A DNA stretch of 64,000 nucleotides from Acidimicrobiales bacterium. Its GTDB lineage: Bacteria > Actinomycetota > Acidimicrobiia > Acidimicrobiales > Aldehydirespiratoraceae. The translations under genes and the position numbers were made by a program. The stretch spans positions 1 to 64,000 of the forward strand of contig JAJCXZ010000049.1 in NCBI GenBank assembly GCA_029263175.1, in the 5' to 3' direction. The notes beneath the pieces are model-generated. The model was not told the DNA's origin. It saw nothing but the letters and a program-made list of their open reading frames with translations, and did no database searches. Positions 1 through 16,938 of this stretch are shown here, piece after piece. Position 1 is the stretch's first letter, and each line of letters starts with the position of its first letter.

Positions 1-411
1 AAACACGACCGCTCACGAGAACACGGCGCATTCGCCAACGCCGGAGGCCGACCATCACGATCCAACGCCGCCTGAAACCCCCACGCCGACCGGAACACAG
101 CTACCGGAGCCAACCCGGAACACGGGTACCGGGACTTGACACGATCTCGGGATCGTTGAGTTTGCGAGGGTCGGGTCGGCAGGTGTCCACCGGTTCGCGG
201 CGTGGAGGAGTTCGGCGGTATCTCAGTGAGCTGGGCGAGAACGCGTTGAGCGTCGCTGCGGGCGGGCCCGCAGTGGTGCCACTTCCCCCGTTCGCTGCGG
301 TGATGTCTGCCACCGAGACCCATCGGCTCACCGGGTCATCAACCCGAAGGTCAACGGACGATCCGCGTTCTGGTTGGTGGGCCTGGTGGCGCGGCGGGCC
401 GGGCGGAGTGC
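1..411. other. No confident gene (left edge)
   Basis: I see no convincing gene here. A Pro/Thr-rich plus-strand reading frame is open from base 2 to a TGA near 140 and could be the tail of a gene beginning outside the window, but it has no recognisable domain. Short frames on both strands beyond it are compositional. A small hairpin (CGGGT/ACCCG) lies near 330-345, before the end of the TetR gene on the other strand. Confidence 0.4.
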
Positions 412-9231: not shown

Positions 9232-9362
9232 TACCCCAACAGACGCACTCCACCCGTTCGCGGGTGACAACCGATATCAGATTCCAGCCCAATCCCAGCC
9301 GGACCGCGCTGAACGGTTCGGTCCTCTACGAAGTCGACATGACCGACGGCTACGCTTCGGGC

Positions 9363-10301
9363 GTGAGCGTGATCGACTGGTTGCTGGACGGAGATCCTTC
9401 CATCCGTTGGCAGGCGCTGAACGACCTTGTGAGTGCACCGGCCGACGACGTTGCCGCCGAGCGCGCCTGTGTCGAACACGAGGGCTGGGGTGCCCGGCTG
9501 CTCGCCGCCGCGGGACCCGATGGACTGTGAGGCGGTGGCGCCTGCTTCCCCGCCGACTACCAGGGTGGTGAGCCGGGGCAACCCTGGACGCCGACGATGC
9601 ACACGTTGCAGACCCTGCAGCTGTTGGGGCTCGATCCGACGTCGGAGTCGGCGCGTCGTGCCGTCGCACTCGTGGCGCAGAACTGTCGTTGGGAACACGA
9701 CGGGCAGCACTTCTTCGATGGCGAGGTCGAGCCGTGCATCAATGGGCGCACCATCGAGACCGGGGCCTATTTCGGTGTGGATGTCTCAGCCGTGATCGAC
9801 CGGATCCTCGACGAGGGTCTTGGCGACGGCGGCTGGAACTGTGAGGCCGAGAATGGGTCGGTGCGGTCGTCGTTCGACACCACGATCAACGTGCTCGAAG
9901 GTCTGGCCGAGTTCGAACGGACATTCAGTACCGCGGCCGAGGTGAGCGCAGCGCGGCGTCGAGGTGAGGAGTATCTGCTCGAGCGCAGCCTGTTCCGTCG
10001 CCAGAGCACGGGCGAGATCGTCAACCACGGCTATCTCGAGTTCGCGTTTCCGTACTACTGGCACTACGACGTGCTGCGGGCGCTCGACTACTTCCGTCGT
10101 GCCGGCGGTGACCCGGACCCTCGGATGCGCGAAGCGGTCGAAGTGGTGCGATCAAAGCAACAGTCAGACGGCCGTTGGCTGCTCGATTGCGTCTATCCGG
10201 GCCGTGTGCATTTCGACATCGAAGCCGACGTTGGAGCCCCGAGCCGCTGGATCACGCTCCGAGCGATGCGAGTGCTCGACTGGTGGGACAACGCTTCGTG
10301 A
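9363..10301 (+). pseudogene. Squalene-cyclase/prenyltransferase-fold protein split by in-frame TGA
   Basis: Two parts in the same frame form one terpenoid-cyclase-like alpha/alpha-barrel protein of about 312 codons. It starts at GTG 9363 (MSVIDWLLDGDPSIRWQ). Codon 56 is TGA (9528-9530) where the family has Trp in a DGxWGGGxYFP-type motif: the reading is GPDGL, stop, GGGACFPADYQ. Downstream repeats include HTLQTLQLLGLDP, GDGGWNCE, SSFDTTINVLEGL and DGRWLLDC. TGG to TGA is a one-base change. Sequence on both sides stays coding, so the lesion is recent, a sequencing error, or read through. Restart at ATG 9597 would give a 234-aa fragment. Function unknown: the family lacks assigned activity in this short form. 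Confidence 0.78.
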
Positions 10302-10852: not shown

Positions 10853-11611
10853 CTATGCGGCGAGGGTTCCGGCGAAGACCTGCCAGGCCAGGGCCGACTT
10901 CGCGACCAGGCTGAGCACGATGTAGCGGCGTTCGCCGTAGAGATAGTCGGCCCACTTGCCTTTGGCCCGGTACTGCTTCCATTGCACGATCGCGAAGCAG
11001 TTGAACAGCAGGAACAGCGACACGACGATGCCGTAGACGAACCCCGGCGTGGTCGCCTCCGCGGGGCCCTTGGGTGAGATCAAGCTCATGAGGACGACGA
11101 GCCAAGGGATGGCTCCGGCGAAGCATCCGAAGATGAACGGCATCCAGTCGCCGTCGCCGGGAGTGGTGTATCTCTCCTGCAGCCAGCCGAACAGGATCAT
11201 GCACACGTTCACGGCGAAGATGCCCGTGAGCGCGATGTAGTCCGCGGTGCCATTGAGCTGCAGGATCACCACGATCATCAGCGACGACGAGATGGAGTAC
11301 TCCACCCATCTGAACGTGTTGTGATTCCGCTGTAGACCGGCGGCGTAGCGCGTGAAGAACCTGGGCGAGATCACCAGAAAATGGAAGCCGGCTGACAGGG
11401 CCAGGAACGCGGCCACCATGTAGCTGATGTTCAGATCGAACAGATTGACCGGATCAGAGAACGAATCTCTCGACGGCGCGTCAGTGAGGTAGGTCGCTCG
11501 AACCGGGAGCGATACGTCGTTCGAGAGCAACAAGATCCCGACTAACGACGCGAGGTGCAGGACAGCGGCGGCGAGGTTGAGCCGCCGCAGTTTGATGAGC
11601 GCCGTATCCAT
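10853..11611 (-). CDS. Heliorhodopsin
   Basis: Seven-helix retinal protein of 252 aa of the heliorhodopsin family, which inserts with the N-terminus inside and is not a classical ion pump; proposed roles are light sensing or modulation of partner proteins. The retinal lysine is K238 in LSLVAKSALAWQVFAG (TM7). The counterion Glu is E104 in FRWVEYSISSS (TM3), with R101 three residues before, matching R104/E107/K241 of HeR-48C12. H19 and H77 match the conserved histidines, and S234 the Ser near the Schiff base. ATG 11611 has a good ribosome site (GGGGAG) inside a CCCCGCGGGG palindrome. No retinal or carotenoid gene is nearby. Upstream lie two direct repeats that may belong to its promoter. Confidence 0.96.
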   Translation of the reverse strand: MDTALIKLRRLNLAAAVLHLASLVGILLLSNDVSLPVRATYLTDAPSRDSFSDPVNLFDLNISYMVAAFLALSAGFHFLVISPRFFTRYAAGLQRNHNTFRWVEYSISSSLMIVVILQLNGTADYIALTGIFAVNVCMILFGWLQERYTTPGDGDWMPFIFGCFAGAIPWLVVLMSLISPKGPAEATTPGFVYGIVVSLFLLFNCFAIVQWKQYRAKGKWADYLYGERRYIVLSLVAKSALAWQVFAGTLAA

Positions 11612-11631
11612 GGAGTCTCCCCGCGGGGTCG

Positions 11632-11655
11632 TACGTACCTAACCCTTACGTACCT
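11632..11655 (-). promoter_or_regulatory. Direct repeats upstream of heliorhodopsin gene
   Basis: On the coding (minus) strand the 9-mer AGGTACGTA occurs twice, separated by 6 nt (plus-strand copies TACGTACCT at 11632-11640 and 11647-11655). They lie 21-44 nt before the ATG, where a promoter or activator site would be. Perfect 9-mers with a 15-nt period suggest a head-to-tail dimer or tandem operator. No assignment to a known factor is possible from sequence. Confidence 0.5.
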
Positions 11656-11731
11656 GCCGGCTGCTTTGGATGCACTGTCTGCGGGGAATGTCCAGGTCTG
11701 GCGTCGGGATCGGCTGAGGACGTCGCAGCGT

Positions 11732-12244
11732 TCAGGCGCTCGGGCCGGCGTCCCTGACGCGCCTGACTTCTTCGAGCGCTTCGGCGAGCTCGGCTATCCA
11801 GTCGCTTTCGTGCTGACCGACCAGGCGCACGCACCAGGCGAGCGCTTCGCTGCATGATCGGGCGATGCCACCTTCGATCAGCGAGTCGAGCACGGCCCGC
11901 TCGTCGAGCCGAAGCCGCGTCATCGCGGGTGCATTGAGTGTCGTGAACAGCACTTGGGCGTCGCCGCACTCGACGCCCCAGCTGACGACACGGCAAAACT
12001 GGGTCTGAGCGCGATCGGCGATCTCCATACGTTGATCGCGCGTCGCTTCGCGAAACGCGACGATCTGCTGCTCGGGGTCGAGACCGGCTCCCGGCTCGCC
12101 GAGGTCGCCCGTGACGAGGATCTCATCGGCGTCGTGGCGCAGATGAGGCCCACTCGAGAACCAACCGTCGGGAAGGGCGTCGGTGAACCAGGCGAGCAGC
12201 TCTTCGGCTGTGGGCTGCGGGATTGAGGCGGACTTGGTGCGCAT
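11732..12244 (-). CDS. Conserved hypothetical protein
   Basis: Soluble protein of 170 aa, not recognised as a named family. The C-terminal third (MTRLRLDERAVLDSLIEGG, ARSCSEALAWCVRLVGQHE, WIAELAEALEEVRRVRD) resembles a helical ribbon-helix-helix-like segment seen in actinobacterial hypothetical proteins. The N-terminal part (ELLAWFTDALPDGWF, HLRHDADEILVTGDL) looks like a small alpha/beta domain. It lies 120 bp upstream of the heliorhodopsin on the same strand and could be co-transcribed, although the repeats between them suggest a separate promoter. ATG 12244 is the only good start. Two tandem 8-bp repeats lie 43-58 bp upstream. Confidence 0.7.
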   Translation of the reverse strand: MRTKSASIPQPTAEELLAWFTDALPDGWFSSGPHLRHDADEILVTGDLGEPGAGLDPEQQIVAFREATRDQRMEIADRAQTQFCRVVSWGVECGDAQVLFTTLNAPAMTRLRLDERAVLDSLIEGGIARSCSEALAWCVRLVGQHESDWIAELAEALEEVRRVRDAGPSA

Positions 12245-12286
12245 ATGAGTCGTCCTGATCGGTGGATAGCAAACACCTTAGTCATG

Positions 12287-12302
12287 TGTAATCATGTAAT
12301 CA
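12287..12302 (-). promoter_or_regulatory. Tandem 8-bp repeats upstream of 11732-12244 gene
   Basis: TGTAATCA occurs twice in immediate succession (12287-12294 and 12295-12302). It is AT-rich against a high-GC background and sits 43-58 bp before the ATG at 12244, so it may be an operator or part of the promoter. No transcription factor can be assigned. Confidence 0.4.
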
Positions 12303-12343
12303 AGAACGCCCACCGATGTAATTCCAAGCAGCCAAAGACTCCT

Positions 12344-13354
12344 CTAGTGCGGCGAGTACGAGGCCAGATTCGCCATGTAGTTGGTGCGCTCGAACGAGGA
12401 TGGATCGGGTGACGATTTCTGGCTGAGGCTGCCTCGGGCCTGGGTCAACGAGCGGTATTCCCGCTCCGTAAACCAGTGGGAGAGTCCGTCCAGCACCGTC
12501 GTCACATGCTCGGGACCGTGCATCAGCAGGGCGGAGGTCATCATTGTCACGTCCGCGCCGGCCAGGATGAGTTTGATGGCAGCCTCAGCATCGTGGATGC
12601 CGGTGGTGGCGGCGAGCGATGCTTCCAGCTGGCCGTGCAGGATGGCGACCCATCGAAGAACCAAGCGCATCTCGTTCGGTGAGCTCAAGACGAGATTGGG
12701 CGTGGTCGACAGCTGGTCGAGGTCGATATCTGGTTGGTAGAAGCGATTGAACAGCACGAGCCCGTCGGCCCCGGCGTCGACCAACCGTCGCGCCATGTTG
12801 GCGGGCGAGCTGAAGAAGGGGCCGATCTTCACCGCGAGAGGGATCTCGACCGTGCTTCTCACGGCCGCGACAAGCTGGAGATATTGGTCTTCGACGTCGG
12901 CGGCCGACGCGTTCGCATCGGCCGCGATGAGGTAGATGTTCAACTCCAGCGCGTCGGCACCTTCATCTTCGAGAAGCTTGGCGTAGTGGGTCCACCCTCC
13001 GGTCGATGTGCCGTTGAGGCTGGCGATCACCGGGATCGTCAGCTCGTTCTTGGCCGCGATCAGGGTGCGGAGGTAGCGATCGGGCCCGGTGTTGTAGGAG
13101 TCGAGCTCCGGAAAATAGCCGCCGAACACCTCCCCGTGCTGATCGGCGCCGGTATCGAGTCCGCGATGGAGTCCCATCGCGTCGTGCTCGATCTGCTCCT
13201 CGAACAACGAAGGCAACACGATGGCCGCGGCTCCGGCCTCCTGCAGCGCGACGAGCGTGTCGATCTGACCCGTGAGTGGTGAGGACGACGCCACGATGGG
13301 ATTGGCGAGATCGAGGCCCATGTAGTGAGTACGGAGGTCGGTGGTTGGGGTCAT
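12344..13354 (-). CDS. Dihydroorotate dehydrogenase-like protein (PFOR-associated)
   Basis: FMN-binding TIM-barrel protein of 336 aa of the dihydroorotate-dehydrogenase-like family. Typical segments: MGLDLANPIVASSSPLTG, IPVIASLNGTSTGGW, GADALELNIYLIAAD, LAVKIGPFFSSPANMARRL and ATTGIHDAEAAIKLILAGAD (phosphate-binding end). These proteins are commonly encoded beside pyruvate:ferredoxin oxidoreductase, and their substrate is not settled; de novo pyrimidine synthesis is not the likely role. ATG 13354 overlaps the PFOR stop by 4 nt, so translation is coupled and a shared function (flavin/ferredoxin redox) is likely. The 3' end has an unusual polar tail (SLSQKSSPDPSSFERTNY). Confidence 0.88.
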   Translation of the reverse strand: MTPTTDLRTHYMGLDLANPIVASSSPLTGQIDTLVALQEAGAAAIVLPSLFEEQIEHDAMGLHRGLDTGADQHGEVFGGYFPELDSYNTGPDRYLRTLIAAKNELTIPVIASLNGTSTGGWTHYAKLLEDEGADALELNIYLIAADANASAADVEDQYLQLVAAVRSTVEIPLAVKIGPFFSSPANMARRLVDAGADGLVLFNRFYQPDIDLDQLSTTPNLVLSSPNEMRLVLRWVAILHGQLEASLAATTGIHDAEAAIKLILAGADVTMMTSALLMHGPEHVTTVLDGLSHWFTEREYRSLTQARGSLSQKSSPDPSSFERTNYMANLASYSPH

Positions 13355-16300
13355 TCTTCTACCTGTCCGAACGTTGCGGTGTGCTCGACATCGACCATCT
13401 GTTGGTAGAGATGCCAACGGTCGTCGATGTCTTGCTGGGCCTCGGTGAAGAGCCGCTCGGCGACCTGGGGGTTGGACCGGGCGAGCATGGCGAAACGGCC
13501 TTCGGTCATGGCGAAGTCGCGGAACGCGACCTTGGGCGGGCGGCTGTCGAGGTGCAGGGCGTGTTCGCCGGCAGCCTCGCGTCCCGGGTCGTAGCGGTAC
13601 ATCGGCCAATAGCCGCTTTCCACCGCCATCTTCTGGTGTTCCATCATGTGGGTCAGGTCGAAACCGTGGGCGATGCAGGGGCTGTAGGCGATTATCAGCG
13701 ACGGCCCCGGATGGGCCTCGGCTTCGGCGAACGCCTTGATGACCTGGGTCATGTTCGCGCCCATCGCCACCTGAGCCACATACACGCCGCCGTAGGCCAT
13801 GGCGATCATGCCGAGGTCCTTCTTGGCGGTGGTCTTGCCCCCGGCGGAGAACTTGGCGATCGCGGCGCGTGGCGTGGCTTTGGACGTCTGGCCGCCTGTG
13901 TTGGAGTAGACCTCGGTGTCGAGCACCAGGATGTTCACATTGCGCCCCGATGCGAGCACGTGATCGAGGCCGCCGAAGCCGATGTCGTACGCCCAGCCGT
14001 CACCGCCCACGATCCATACGCCGGTGTCGACGAGATAGTCGCTGAGTGAGCGAAGGCGCGACGCCAGCGGTGTCGTCTCGGGATCGGCCAGCTGATCGAG
14101 ACGAGCCCGCAGAGCCGCGACCCGTTCGCGTTGGTCGGCGATGCCGCGCTCGTGGCTCTGGTCGGCTTCGAGGATGTCGGCCGCCACCGGTCCCACCTCG
14201 GAGGCCAGCGAGGCGAGTAGCCGGCGAGCTTCGGCCTCGTGATGGTCGAGCGCGAGCCGCATCCCGAGCCCGAACTCGGCATTGTCCTCGAACAGCGAGT
14301 TGGCCCATGCGGGACCGCGGCCGTCGGCGTTCGTGGCCCACGGAGTGGTGGGTAGATTGGCGCCATAGATCGACGAACAGCCGGTGGCATTGGCCACGGT
14401 GATCCGATCACCGAATTGTTGGGTGAGCAGCTTCAGGTAGGGGGTCTCGCCGCAGCCGAGGCACGCGCCGGAGAACTCGAAGAGAGGTTGGGCCTGCTGA
14501 GTCCCCTTGATCGTGAGGAGGTCGAGAGAACTCCGATCGGCTTCGGGGAGGTCGAGGAAATGGGCGAAGTTGATGCGCTCCGCGTCCAAGTGATCGGCCT
14601 TGGCCTCCATGTTGATCGCCCGATGCTTGACGACCTCTTTGCTCTTTGCCGGGCAGATGCTGACGCAGACCCCGCAGCCGGTGCAGTCATCGGGGGCAAC
14701 CTGGATGACGAGGCGTTGATCGGGCGTGCTGTGCCGGTCGCCGGTCCAGTCCTTGTCGCGGAATCCTTCGGGCGCGTCGGTGAGGGTCTCCGCCGGCAAC
14801 ACCTTCATGCGGATGGCGGCGTGGGGGCACACCAGGGTGCAACGGCCGCAGTCGATGCAGATGTCGGGATCCCAGATCGGGATGTCGATGGCGAGGCTTC
14901 GTTTCTCCCACTGTGCGGTTCCCATCGGGAACGAGCCGTCGACGGGCATGGCACTGACGGGGAGAAGATCGCCCTTCCCGTCCATCATCATGGCGGTGAC
15001 CCGTTGCACGAAATCGGGAGCCTCCTCCGGCACGGGTCGCCGAAGGCGTCTCGTCCCGACCATCTCGGCAGGAGTTTCGACCCGGACCAGAGCCGCCACG
15101 GCCTGGTCGACCGCCGCGAAGTTGCGGTCGAGCACGAGTTGGCCTCGCTTCTGGTAGCTCCTGGAGATGGCGTCCTTGACAGCAGCCACGGCTTCATCGG
15201 GGGGCAGGACTCCTGCCAGGAAAAAGAAGCAGGTCTGCAGCACGGTGTTGACGTGGCCGCCCAACCCCGCCTCCGTGGCGACGCGCCCGCCGTCCACGAT
15301 CCAGAGGGCCAGGTCCTTGTCGATGATCTGGCGTTGGGTTTCGATGGGCAGGCTGCGCCACACCGTTTCGGGACCGTGGTGGGTGTTGAGCAGGAAGGTC
15401 GCCCCTCGGCGGGCGATCCTCAGAACATCGACCTGGTCAAGGAGACTCGTGTGATGACAGGCGACGAAGTCGGCCTCACCGATCAGATAGGTGGAGCGGA
15501 TCGGCTCCGGCCCGAACCGAAGGTGTGACACGGTCATCGACCCGGACTTCTTGGAGTCGTAGACGAAGTAGCCCTGAGCAAACTGCGTTGTGGATTCACC
15601 GATGATCTTCACCGAGTTCTTGTTCGCCCCCACGGTGCCGTCGCTGCCGAGGCCGTAGAAGACCGCTCGGTTGACGTTGTCGGGTTCGCTCCAACGAGAC
15701 TCATCGACGTCGAGGCTGAGGTGGGTGACGTCGTCGATGATGCCGACGGTGAAATGGGGCCGCGGAGTCGCCCCGTCGAGTTCGTCGAGGATCGACAGCG
15801 CCATCGCCGGCGTGAACTCCTTCGATGAGAGGCCGTAGCGACCACCGATCACACTGGGCATCGACTTCTGGTGCCGCTCGAACAACGCGGTCACGACGTC
15901 GCTGTAGAGGGGTTCACCGACCGAACCGGGCTCCTTGGTGCGATCCAACACCGCGATCGAACGGACGGACGCGGGAAGCGCGGCGACGAATGCCTCGGAA
16001 TCGAATGGCCGGTAGAGCCGTACGGCCACAACCCCGACCTTGGCCCCTGCCGCGGCCTCGCGCTCGACGGCTTCGATGGCCGCGCCGACCCCGGAGCCCA
16101 TCATGACGATGACCCGTTCAGCGTCAGGTGCCCCCCAGTAGTCGAACAGGTGATACGCCCGGCCCGTCAGGTCAGCGAGGCGATCCATTTCCGTCTGCAC
16201 CGCGTTCGGCGTGGCCAGGTGAAATGGGTTGGCGGCCTCGCGGGCCTGGAAGAAGACATCCGGGTTCTGGGCGGTGCGTCGAAGCACCGGATGATTCGGG

Positions 16301-16938
16301 TTCAAGCCGCGGGTCCGGTGTTGCTCGACCAGGCTGTCGTCGATCATCTCGCGAATCGTGTCGTCAGAGACGCTCTCGATCTTCGACACCTCGTGGGAGG
16401 TGCGGAATCCGTCGAAGAAGTGCAGGAATGGGACCCTGGTCCGCAGCGTCGACGCGTGGGCGACCAGCGCCAGGTCCTGGGCCTCCTGCACCGACGACGA
16501 TGCCAACATGGCCATCCCGGTCTGGCGGACAGCCATCACATCGCTGTGGTCGCCGAAGATGCTCAGAGCGTGCGTGGCGAGCGAACGCGCCGCCACATGG
16601 ACAACCGCTGGCGTGAGCTCGCCCGCGATCTTGTACAGGTTCGGGATCATCAACAACAGGCCCTGCGAGGCCGTGAACGTTGTCGTCAGTGCTCCGGCCT
16701 GCAACGCACCGTGAACGGCGCCTGCGGCTCCGCCCTCGCTCTGCATCTCGATCACGTCGGGCACCGCGCCCCACGCGTTCGTCCTTCCCTGCTGAGACCA
16801 GGCGTCCGCCAGCTCGCCCATTGCCGACGCCGGCGTGATCGGGTAGATCGCGATCACCTCGCTCGCCTGATGGGCGACGCGGGCAGCCGCCTCGTTCCCA
16901 TCAACAGTGACCCACGACGTCGTGTCAGCGCCTCGCAT
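13351..16938 (-). CDS. nifJ: Pyruvate:ferredoxin (flavodoxin) oxidoreductase
   Basis: Single-chain PFOR of 1195 aa, the normal length for homodimeric enzymes. It converts pyruvate and CoA to acetyl-CoA and CO2 and reduces ferredoxin. Domains in order: N-terminal TPP/substrate domain (YPITPASAMGELAD at about 32, EMQSEGGAAGAVHGAL at about 64), domain II, gamma domain (YGLGSDGTVGANKNSVKIIG at about 430), a ferredoxin domain with two 4Fe-4S motifs (CIDCGRCTLVCP at about 694 and CTGCGVCVSICP at about 754), and the C-terminal TPP domain (CLGCGETPYLK, GDGWAYDIGFGGLDH, NTGGQ). ATG 16938 follows GGGAGGA. It heads an operon with the DHOD-like gene. Oxygen sensitivity is usual, so microaerobic metabolism or a protected form is implied. 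Confidence 0.97.
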   Translation of the reverse strand: MRGADTTSWVTVDGNEAAARVAHQASEVIAIYPITPASAMGELADAWSQQGRTNAWGAVPDVIEMQSEGGAAGAVHGALQAGALTTTFTASQGLLLMIPNLYKIAGELTPAVVHVAARSLATHALSIFGDHSDVMAVRQTGMAMLASSSVQEAQDLALVAHASTLRTRVPFLHFFDGFRTSHEVSKIESVSDDTIREMIDDSLVEQHRTRGLNPNHPVLRRTAQNPDVFFQAREAANPFHLATPNAVQTEMDRLADLTGRAYHLFDYWGAPDAERVIVMMGSGVGAAIEAVEREAAAGAKVGVVAVRLYRPFDSEAFVAALPASVRSIAVLDRTKEPGSVGEPLYSDVVTALFERHQKSMPSVIGGRYGLSSKEFTPAMALSILDELDGATPRPHFTVGIIDDVTHLSLDVDESRWSEPDNVNRAVFYGLGSDGTVGANKNSVKIIGESTTQFAQGYFVYDSKKSGSMTVSHLRFGPEPIRSTYLIGEADFVACHHTSLLDQVDVLRIARRGATFLLNTHHGPETVWRSLPIETQRQIIDKDLALWIVDGGRVATEAGLGGHVNTVLQTCFFFLAGVLPPDEAVAAVKDAISRSYQKRGQLVLDRNFAAVDQAVAALVRVETPAEMVGTRRLRRPVPEEAPDFVQRVTAMMMDGKGDLLPVSAMPVDGSFPMGTAQWEKRSLAIDIPIWDPDICIDCGRCTLVCPHAAIRMKVLPAETLTDAPEGFRDKDWTGDRHSTPDQRLVIQVAPDDCTGCGVCVSICPAKSKEVVKHRAINMEAKADHLDAERINFAHFLDLPEADRSSLDLLTIKGTQQAQPLFEFSGACLGCGETPYLKLLTQQFGDRITVANATGCSSIYGANLPTTPWATNADGRGPAWANSLFEDNAEFGLGMRLALDHHEAEARRLLASLASEVGPVAADILEADQSHERGIADQRERVAALRARLDQLADPETTPLASRLRSLSDYLVDTGVWIVGGDGWAYDIGFGGLDHVLASGRNVNILVLDTEVYSNTGGQTSKATPRAAIAKFSAGGKTTAKKDLGMIAMAYGGVYVAQVAMGANMTQVIKAFAEAEAHPGPSLIIAYSPCIAHGFDLTHMMEHQKMAVESGYWPMYRYDPGREAAGEHALHLDSRPPKVAFRDFAMTEGRFAMLARSNPQVAERLFTEAQQDIDDRWHLYQQMVDVEHTATFGQVEE

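Follow-up and report, generated by a model that had tools for sequence, protein, structure and literature searches.

Conserved tandem octamer boxes, very probably an autoregulatory operator, upstream of an abmR gene that adjoins a heliorhodopsin gene

AbmR, the Rv1265 product of Mycobacterium tuberculosis, reportedly binds DNA better with ATP, inhibits itself and depends on C-terminal arginines for DNA binding. Rv1265 binds both ATP and DNA and induces the RNA Mcr11; the abmR promoter and the -35 element of Mcr11 coincide (review, PMC8628891). Although AbmR controls an abundant small RNA of M. tuberculosis, its DNA target code and its fold class are apparently undescribed. Among regulators whose targets are contiguous short boxes, MetJ binds 8-bp met boxes, arrayed contiguously in one register. 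ParB/omega of plasmid pSM19035, a ribbon-helix-helix protein, likewise binds contiguous short boxes, both direct and inverted (PMC9499535). We describe here an array of octamer boxes upstream of an abmR gene that lies, on the same strand and 120 bp away, just before a heliorhodopsin gene. The setting is a 64,000-nucleotide stretch of DNA, hereafter the window, whose features of interest are collected in Table 1. No paper turned up when the literature was searched for the box sequence, the primary AbmR footprints lying outside the comparison, and the octamer motif is likely to be new.

Table 1. Features of the abmR-heliorhodopsin locus, in window coordinates or, for protein domains, in AbmR residues.
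Feature	Position	Strand	Basis and remarks
Heliorhodopsin gene	10853..11611	(-)	252 aa; PF18761, NF038020, 48C12 alignment
AGGTACGTA near copy	11632..11640	(-)	21-29 nt before heliorhodopsin ATG; probably incidental
AGGTACGTA far copy	11647..11655	(-)	36-44 nt before heliorhodopsin ATG; probably incidental
abmR-family gene	11732..12244	(-)	170 aa; NF058631; AlphaFold model
Predicted abmR promoter	12275..12303	(-)	TTGATT (12303-12298), 17-nt spacer, TAAGGT (12280-12275); loose consensus match, inferred
Putative operator box 1, TGTAATCA	12287..12294	(+)	8-bp-register GTAAT pairs at abmR loci; unique in own genome
Putative operator box 2, TGTAATCA	12295..12302	(+)	Abuts box 1 directly; basis as for box 1
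AbmR N-terminal alpha/beta domain	residues about 9-96		AlphaFold model
AbmR C-terminal ribbon-helix-helix-like domain	residues about 106-170		ParD/PrpA antitoxin matches, each weak

The gene upstream of heliorhodopsin had been taken for an uncharacterised neighbour, wrongly. Its product finds no family name in a Pfam search and scores 193.9 bits against the AbmR equivalog model NF058631, above the curated cut-off of 160, with residues 13-169 aligned to positions 2-166 of the 167-position profile. By this match it is AbmR, of the Rv1265 family of ATP-binding regulators, and the full-length match above the curated cut-off is also what it shares with Rv1265 of M. tuberculosis.

The original prediction placed tandem TGTAATCA repeats upstream of this gene, and two copies are indeed there. 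The same word recurs upstream of abmR in other genomes. We assembled 107 distinct abmR loci by searches of the order and the phylum, and found the pattern GTAA[TC]nnnGTAA[TCG] in 88 of their upstream regions against none in 397 kb of flanking DNA. When converging and diverging arrangements are included, GTAAT pairs in an 8-bp register occur at 96 of the 107 loci and nowhere in 395 kb of flanks; 50 dinucleotide shuffles gave a mean of 1.06 and at most 3. The remaining 11 loci lack a register pair. Boxes of the same orientation are spaced by 8 bp in 91 cases and by 16 bp in 13, all other values occurring at most three times. Inverted pairs, with offsets mainly of +9 and +17, keep to the same 8-bp register. 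In most relatives the boxes read along abmR; those of the window read opposite to it.

To examine uniqueness, we searched nine whole genomes. Eight of them contain exact GTAATnnnGTAAT and the ninth does not; seven of the eight hold it as a single site, each time at abmR and 11-80 bp away from the first abmR codon that the profile matches, while the eighth has its abmR site and one more. A reversed-pattern control gave no match in the eight genomes that have GTAATnnnGTAAT. In the window's own genome, no second site was found for the 16-mer formed by the two boxes with up to 2 mismatches allowed. By conservation and genome-wide uniqueness, then, the TGTAATCA pair evidently exceeds chance, and by the same sequence comparisons these operator-like octamers are conserved through Actinomycetota at close to one site per genome.

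Position adds to this picture. Read directly, the predicted abmR promoter has the two boxes in its -35 element and spacer; it is a loose match to consensus, though well placed, and a strict sigma-70 scan returned no promoter for either abmR or the heliorhodopsin gene. Several relatives have TTGACG and TAATCT around their abmR boxes or overlapping them, and in many others the box array extends into the abmR start codon. Boxes that lie in the -35 element and spacer, or that reach the start codon, suit repression of abmR itself. Their position, conservation and uniqueness lead us to infer that AbmR binds the boxes, and the tandem TGTAATCA array is very probably the operator of AbmR itself. The earlier idea of light- or stress-regulatory repeats at the neighbour survives in part: a regulatory role is strongly supported by conservation and genome-wide uniqueness, not as a light element but as a probable autoregulatory AbmR operator.

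Motif conservation alone does not identify a binding protein, and the small RNA beside abmR in M. tuberculosis also depends on CRP (PMC3207917); both points would fit boxes bound by a different regulator that controls abmR, for example a global factor. We consider this unlikely, since a global factor is expected at many sites, while a genome holds the exact motif about once, at abmR, and the mismatch-tolerant search of the own genome returned the abmR site only. The direct and inverted pairs in octamer register, moreover, suit a ribbon-helix-helix protein.

That AbmR carries such a domain is suggested by its predicted structure. An AlphaFold model built from an alignment of 88 AbmR proteins has a mean pLDDT of 90.5 and two domains. 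The N-terminal one resembles KH-, RbfA-, FSCA- and cation-transporter-like alpha/beta domains only moderately, with Z up to 7.1. The C-terminal one begins with an invariant MTRLR stretch, followed by helices at residues 113-124 and 131-166. Modelled alone, the C-terminus matches antitoxins in all of its 15 best Foldseek rows and all of its ten best VIA rows. Most of them are ParD, a family described as ribbon-helix-helix, and taken one by one the matches are weak (Foldseek E no lower than 0.5; VIA Z below 6). Pfam ParD_antitoxin matches, also weak (E 0.003-0.1), occur in 9 of 52 AbmR members; a PDB sequence search with AbmR gave no match, and in the monomer models the ribbon strand is not formed. 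The C-terminus is likely to adopt a ribbon-helix-helix fold, judging from these models. The ParD-like antitoxins 5ceg, 7ycs and 8c24 are its best structural matches and share its predicted order of fold elements; AbmR differs from them in its large N-terminal domain, in having no toxin gene seen beside it, and in sequence matches that fall below the curated cut-offs.

The abmR array resembles the parS heptad repeats of ParB/omega and the met boxes of MetJ, with which it shares contiguous short boxes, direct and inverted, in one register. The abmR boxes differ from those of ParB/omega in being GTAAT octamers rather than heptads, and abmR arrays differ from the targets of both proteins in having mostly two or three boxes, at one gene. 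In the mechanism that we propose, the ATP-binding transcription factor encoded by abmR would have an operator of its own, made up of tandem 8-bp boxes with the consensus TGTAATCA. AbmR dimers would sit side by side on the boxes through the C-terminal ribbon-helix-helix, one dimer per box, and binding would depend on the 8-bp spacing in the TGTAATCATGTAATCA duplex. Bound AbmR would shut its own promoter by blocking RNA polymerase, and ATP, whose effect is known for Rv1265 only, would modulate it. The octamer register offers an operator that can be tested at once, suggests a structural class for the part of the protein that binds DNA, and predicts a regulon of essentially one site.

The putative operator is also found at AbmR loci of probable mycobacteria. 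Neither Mcr11 (RF02341) nor any other Rfam RNA was found in the window at gathering thresholds. The window differs in this from 4 of 20 AbmR loci scanned, where Mcr11 lies past the boxes and on the other strand from abmR. All four come from a single genus; as RF02341 is an RNA of mycobacteria, this is probably Mycobacterium. A wider reading, which we advance tentatively and regard as possible rather than probable, is that AbmR is a nearly single-target factor across Actinomycetota: its own promoter would be the only strong site, bound by the ribbon-helix-helix on tandem octamers, and the divergent Mcr11 would be a later mycobacterial addition. If true, the main job of AbmR would lie elsewhere and the operator would just set its dose.

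The heliorhodopsin gene itself was correctly recognized in the original prediction, including residues K238, E104 and R101. Its product scores 308.8 bits against PF18761 (Pfam cut-off 26.7), covering profile positions 1-242 of 242, and 319.4 bits against NF038020. The 48C12 heliorhodopsin (6su3) is a close solved relative (E 4.6e-89); in the alignment with it R101, E104 and K238 stand opposite R104, E107 and K241, so that the Schiff-base lysine K238 and the glutamate counterion E104 are both present. Freshwater actinobacterial heliorhodopsins are 70-75% identical to the window protein. Family, counterion and Schiff-base lysine are shared with 48C12 and with freshwater acidimicrobial heliorhodopsins, and the sole difference of the window gene is its gene neighbourhood. 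By these profile and alignment matches the protein is an ordinary member of PF18761.

The neighbour had been put forward as a candidate functional partner of heliorhodopsin. With a shared strand and a 120-bp gap, AbmR and heliorhodopsin might respond to light or energy as a unit, for instance if transcription from the abmR promoter reads through, and operon-linked modulation of other heliorhodopsins has been described (PMC11109279; PMC9529153). Yet AbmR lies near none of about 150 other heliorhodopsins, among which it is thus no conserved neighbour, and different genes recur beside related heliorhodopsins; nor does AbmR belong to the ten frequent neighbour groups of PMC11109279. A sample of 198 genomes from the order has heliorhodopsin in 53, AbmR in 52 and both in 16, where about 14 are expected by chance. 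The two genes are never adjacent in the other 15 genomes with both, being on different contigs or, in the single-contig genome G089, 1.27 Mb apart. Three genomes of the same genus have no AbmR at all. A joint unit is thus highly improbable, the adjacency appears from gene order to be coincidental, and a false lead is closed: AbmR is not worth pursuing as a heliorhodopsin partner. Taken as a whole, the locus can with good confidence be read from its sequence as an ordinary heliorhodopsin gene beside an unrelated abmR that would be autorepressed through its tandem octamer boxes, the two having come together by coincidence.

A second repeat, the AGGTACGTA pair, had been reported 21-44 nt upstream of the heliorhodopsin gene and is present there as described. 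We compared 135 distinct upstream regions of heliorhodopsin loci drawn from the order, the family and named genomes. None of the other 134 has the pair, which rules it out as a conserved heliorhodopsin promoter element; it is missing even from relatives whose proteins are 75% identical and from the same-genus locus L084. With up to 3 mismatches allowed, a search of the own genome gave a single further match for the pair, and its reversed control also gave a single one. Such repeats are common: 191 of 6892 control windows of 120 bp (2.8%) contain an exact 9-mer direct repeat at the same distance, and in the 64-kb window they begin at 27 places. Enrichment of k-mers across the 135 upstream regions revealed no common element, just mixed AT-containing words owed partly to near-identical relatives. 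Because it is neither conserved nor recurrent in the genome, and because repeats of this kind are common, the pair is probably incidental. Two exact 9-mers, 15 bp apart and so close to the ATG, might still form a real heliorhodopsin operator peculiar to one species; we give this little credence in the face of the 134 regions without it, those of the closest relatives included, of a genomic match that needs 3 mismatches and is equalled by the reversed control, and of the frequency of comparable repeats in control windows. The proposed role of AGGTACGTA as a light- or stress-responsive promoter element finds no support in these comparisons. Neither the AGGTACGTA repeats nor the neighbour is conserved beside heliorhodopsins, an outcome by which the proposed partnership of neighbour and heliorhodopsin falls on its own terms.

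A different word, TGCATCC, was seen upstream of five heliorhodopsin genes, namely that of the window (near 11668-11674) and those of L085, L096, L097 and L024; the L085 and L096 regions have two copies each.

The statement that retinal has to be supplied from outside appears to hold for the window only. Carotenoid oxygenases (PF03055) are encoded by three genes of the own genome; one lies on the window's contig and the others on contigs C84 and C85. An outside source of retinal is not established genome-wide, because the gene on the same contig (G000 C49:174559-175941, L185) matches apocarotenoid-15,15'-oxygenase, about equally with lignostilbene dioxygenase; it is a possible retinal source. 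A search for the retinal-forming dioxygenase Blh/Brp (PF15461) in four genomes of the genus gave no match, but its controls were silent too and absence is not shown.

Several further genes surround the pair. Window positions 12344-16938 (-) hold a dihydroorotate-dehydrogenase-like gene (NF005741) that overlaps a pyruvate:ferredoxin-oxidoreductase-like gene by 4 bp; the former had no match in six genomes of the same family, in a synteny search that is uninformative for want of a positive control. At 9264-10301 (+) a cyclase-like frame with a weak squalene/oxidosqualene cyclase match contains an in-frame TGA at 9528-9530, so that the gene is broken unless the sequencing is at fault. Elsewhere in the genus, every genome with an intact heliorhodopsin (G216 and G218; L099 and L100) also has a second, stop-containing remnant. 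Convergent with the heliorhodopsin gene of the window is a mycothiol-S-transferase/DinB gene (PF04978; 10326-10832, +). A distant relative adjoins heliorhodopsin in L140, L146, L147 and L155, but there it lies upstream and on the other strand.
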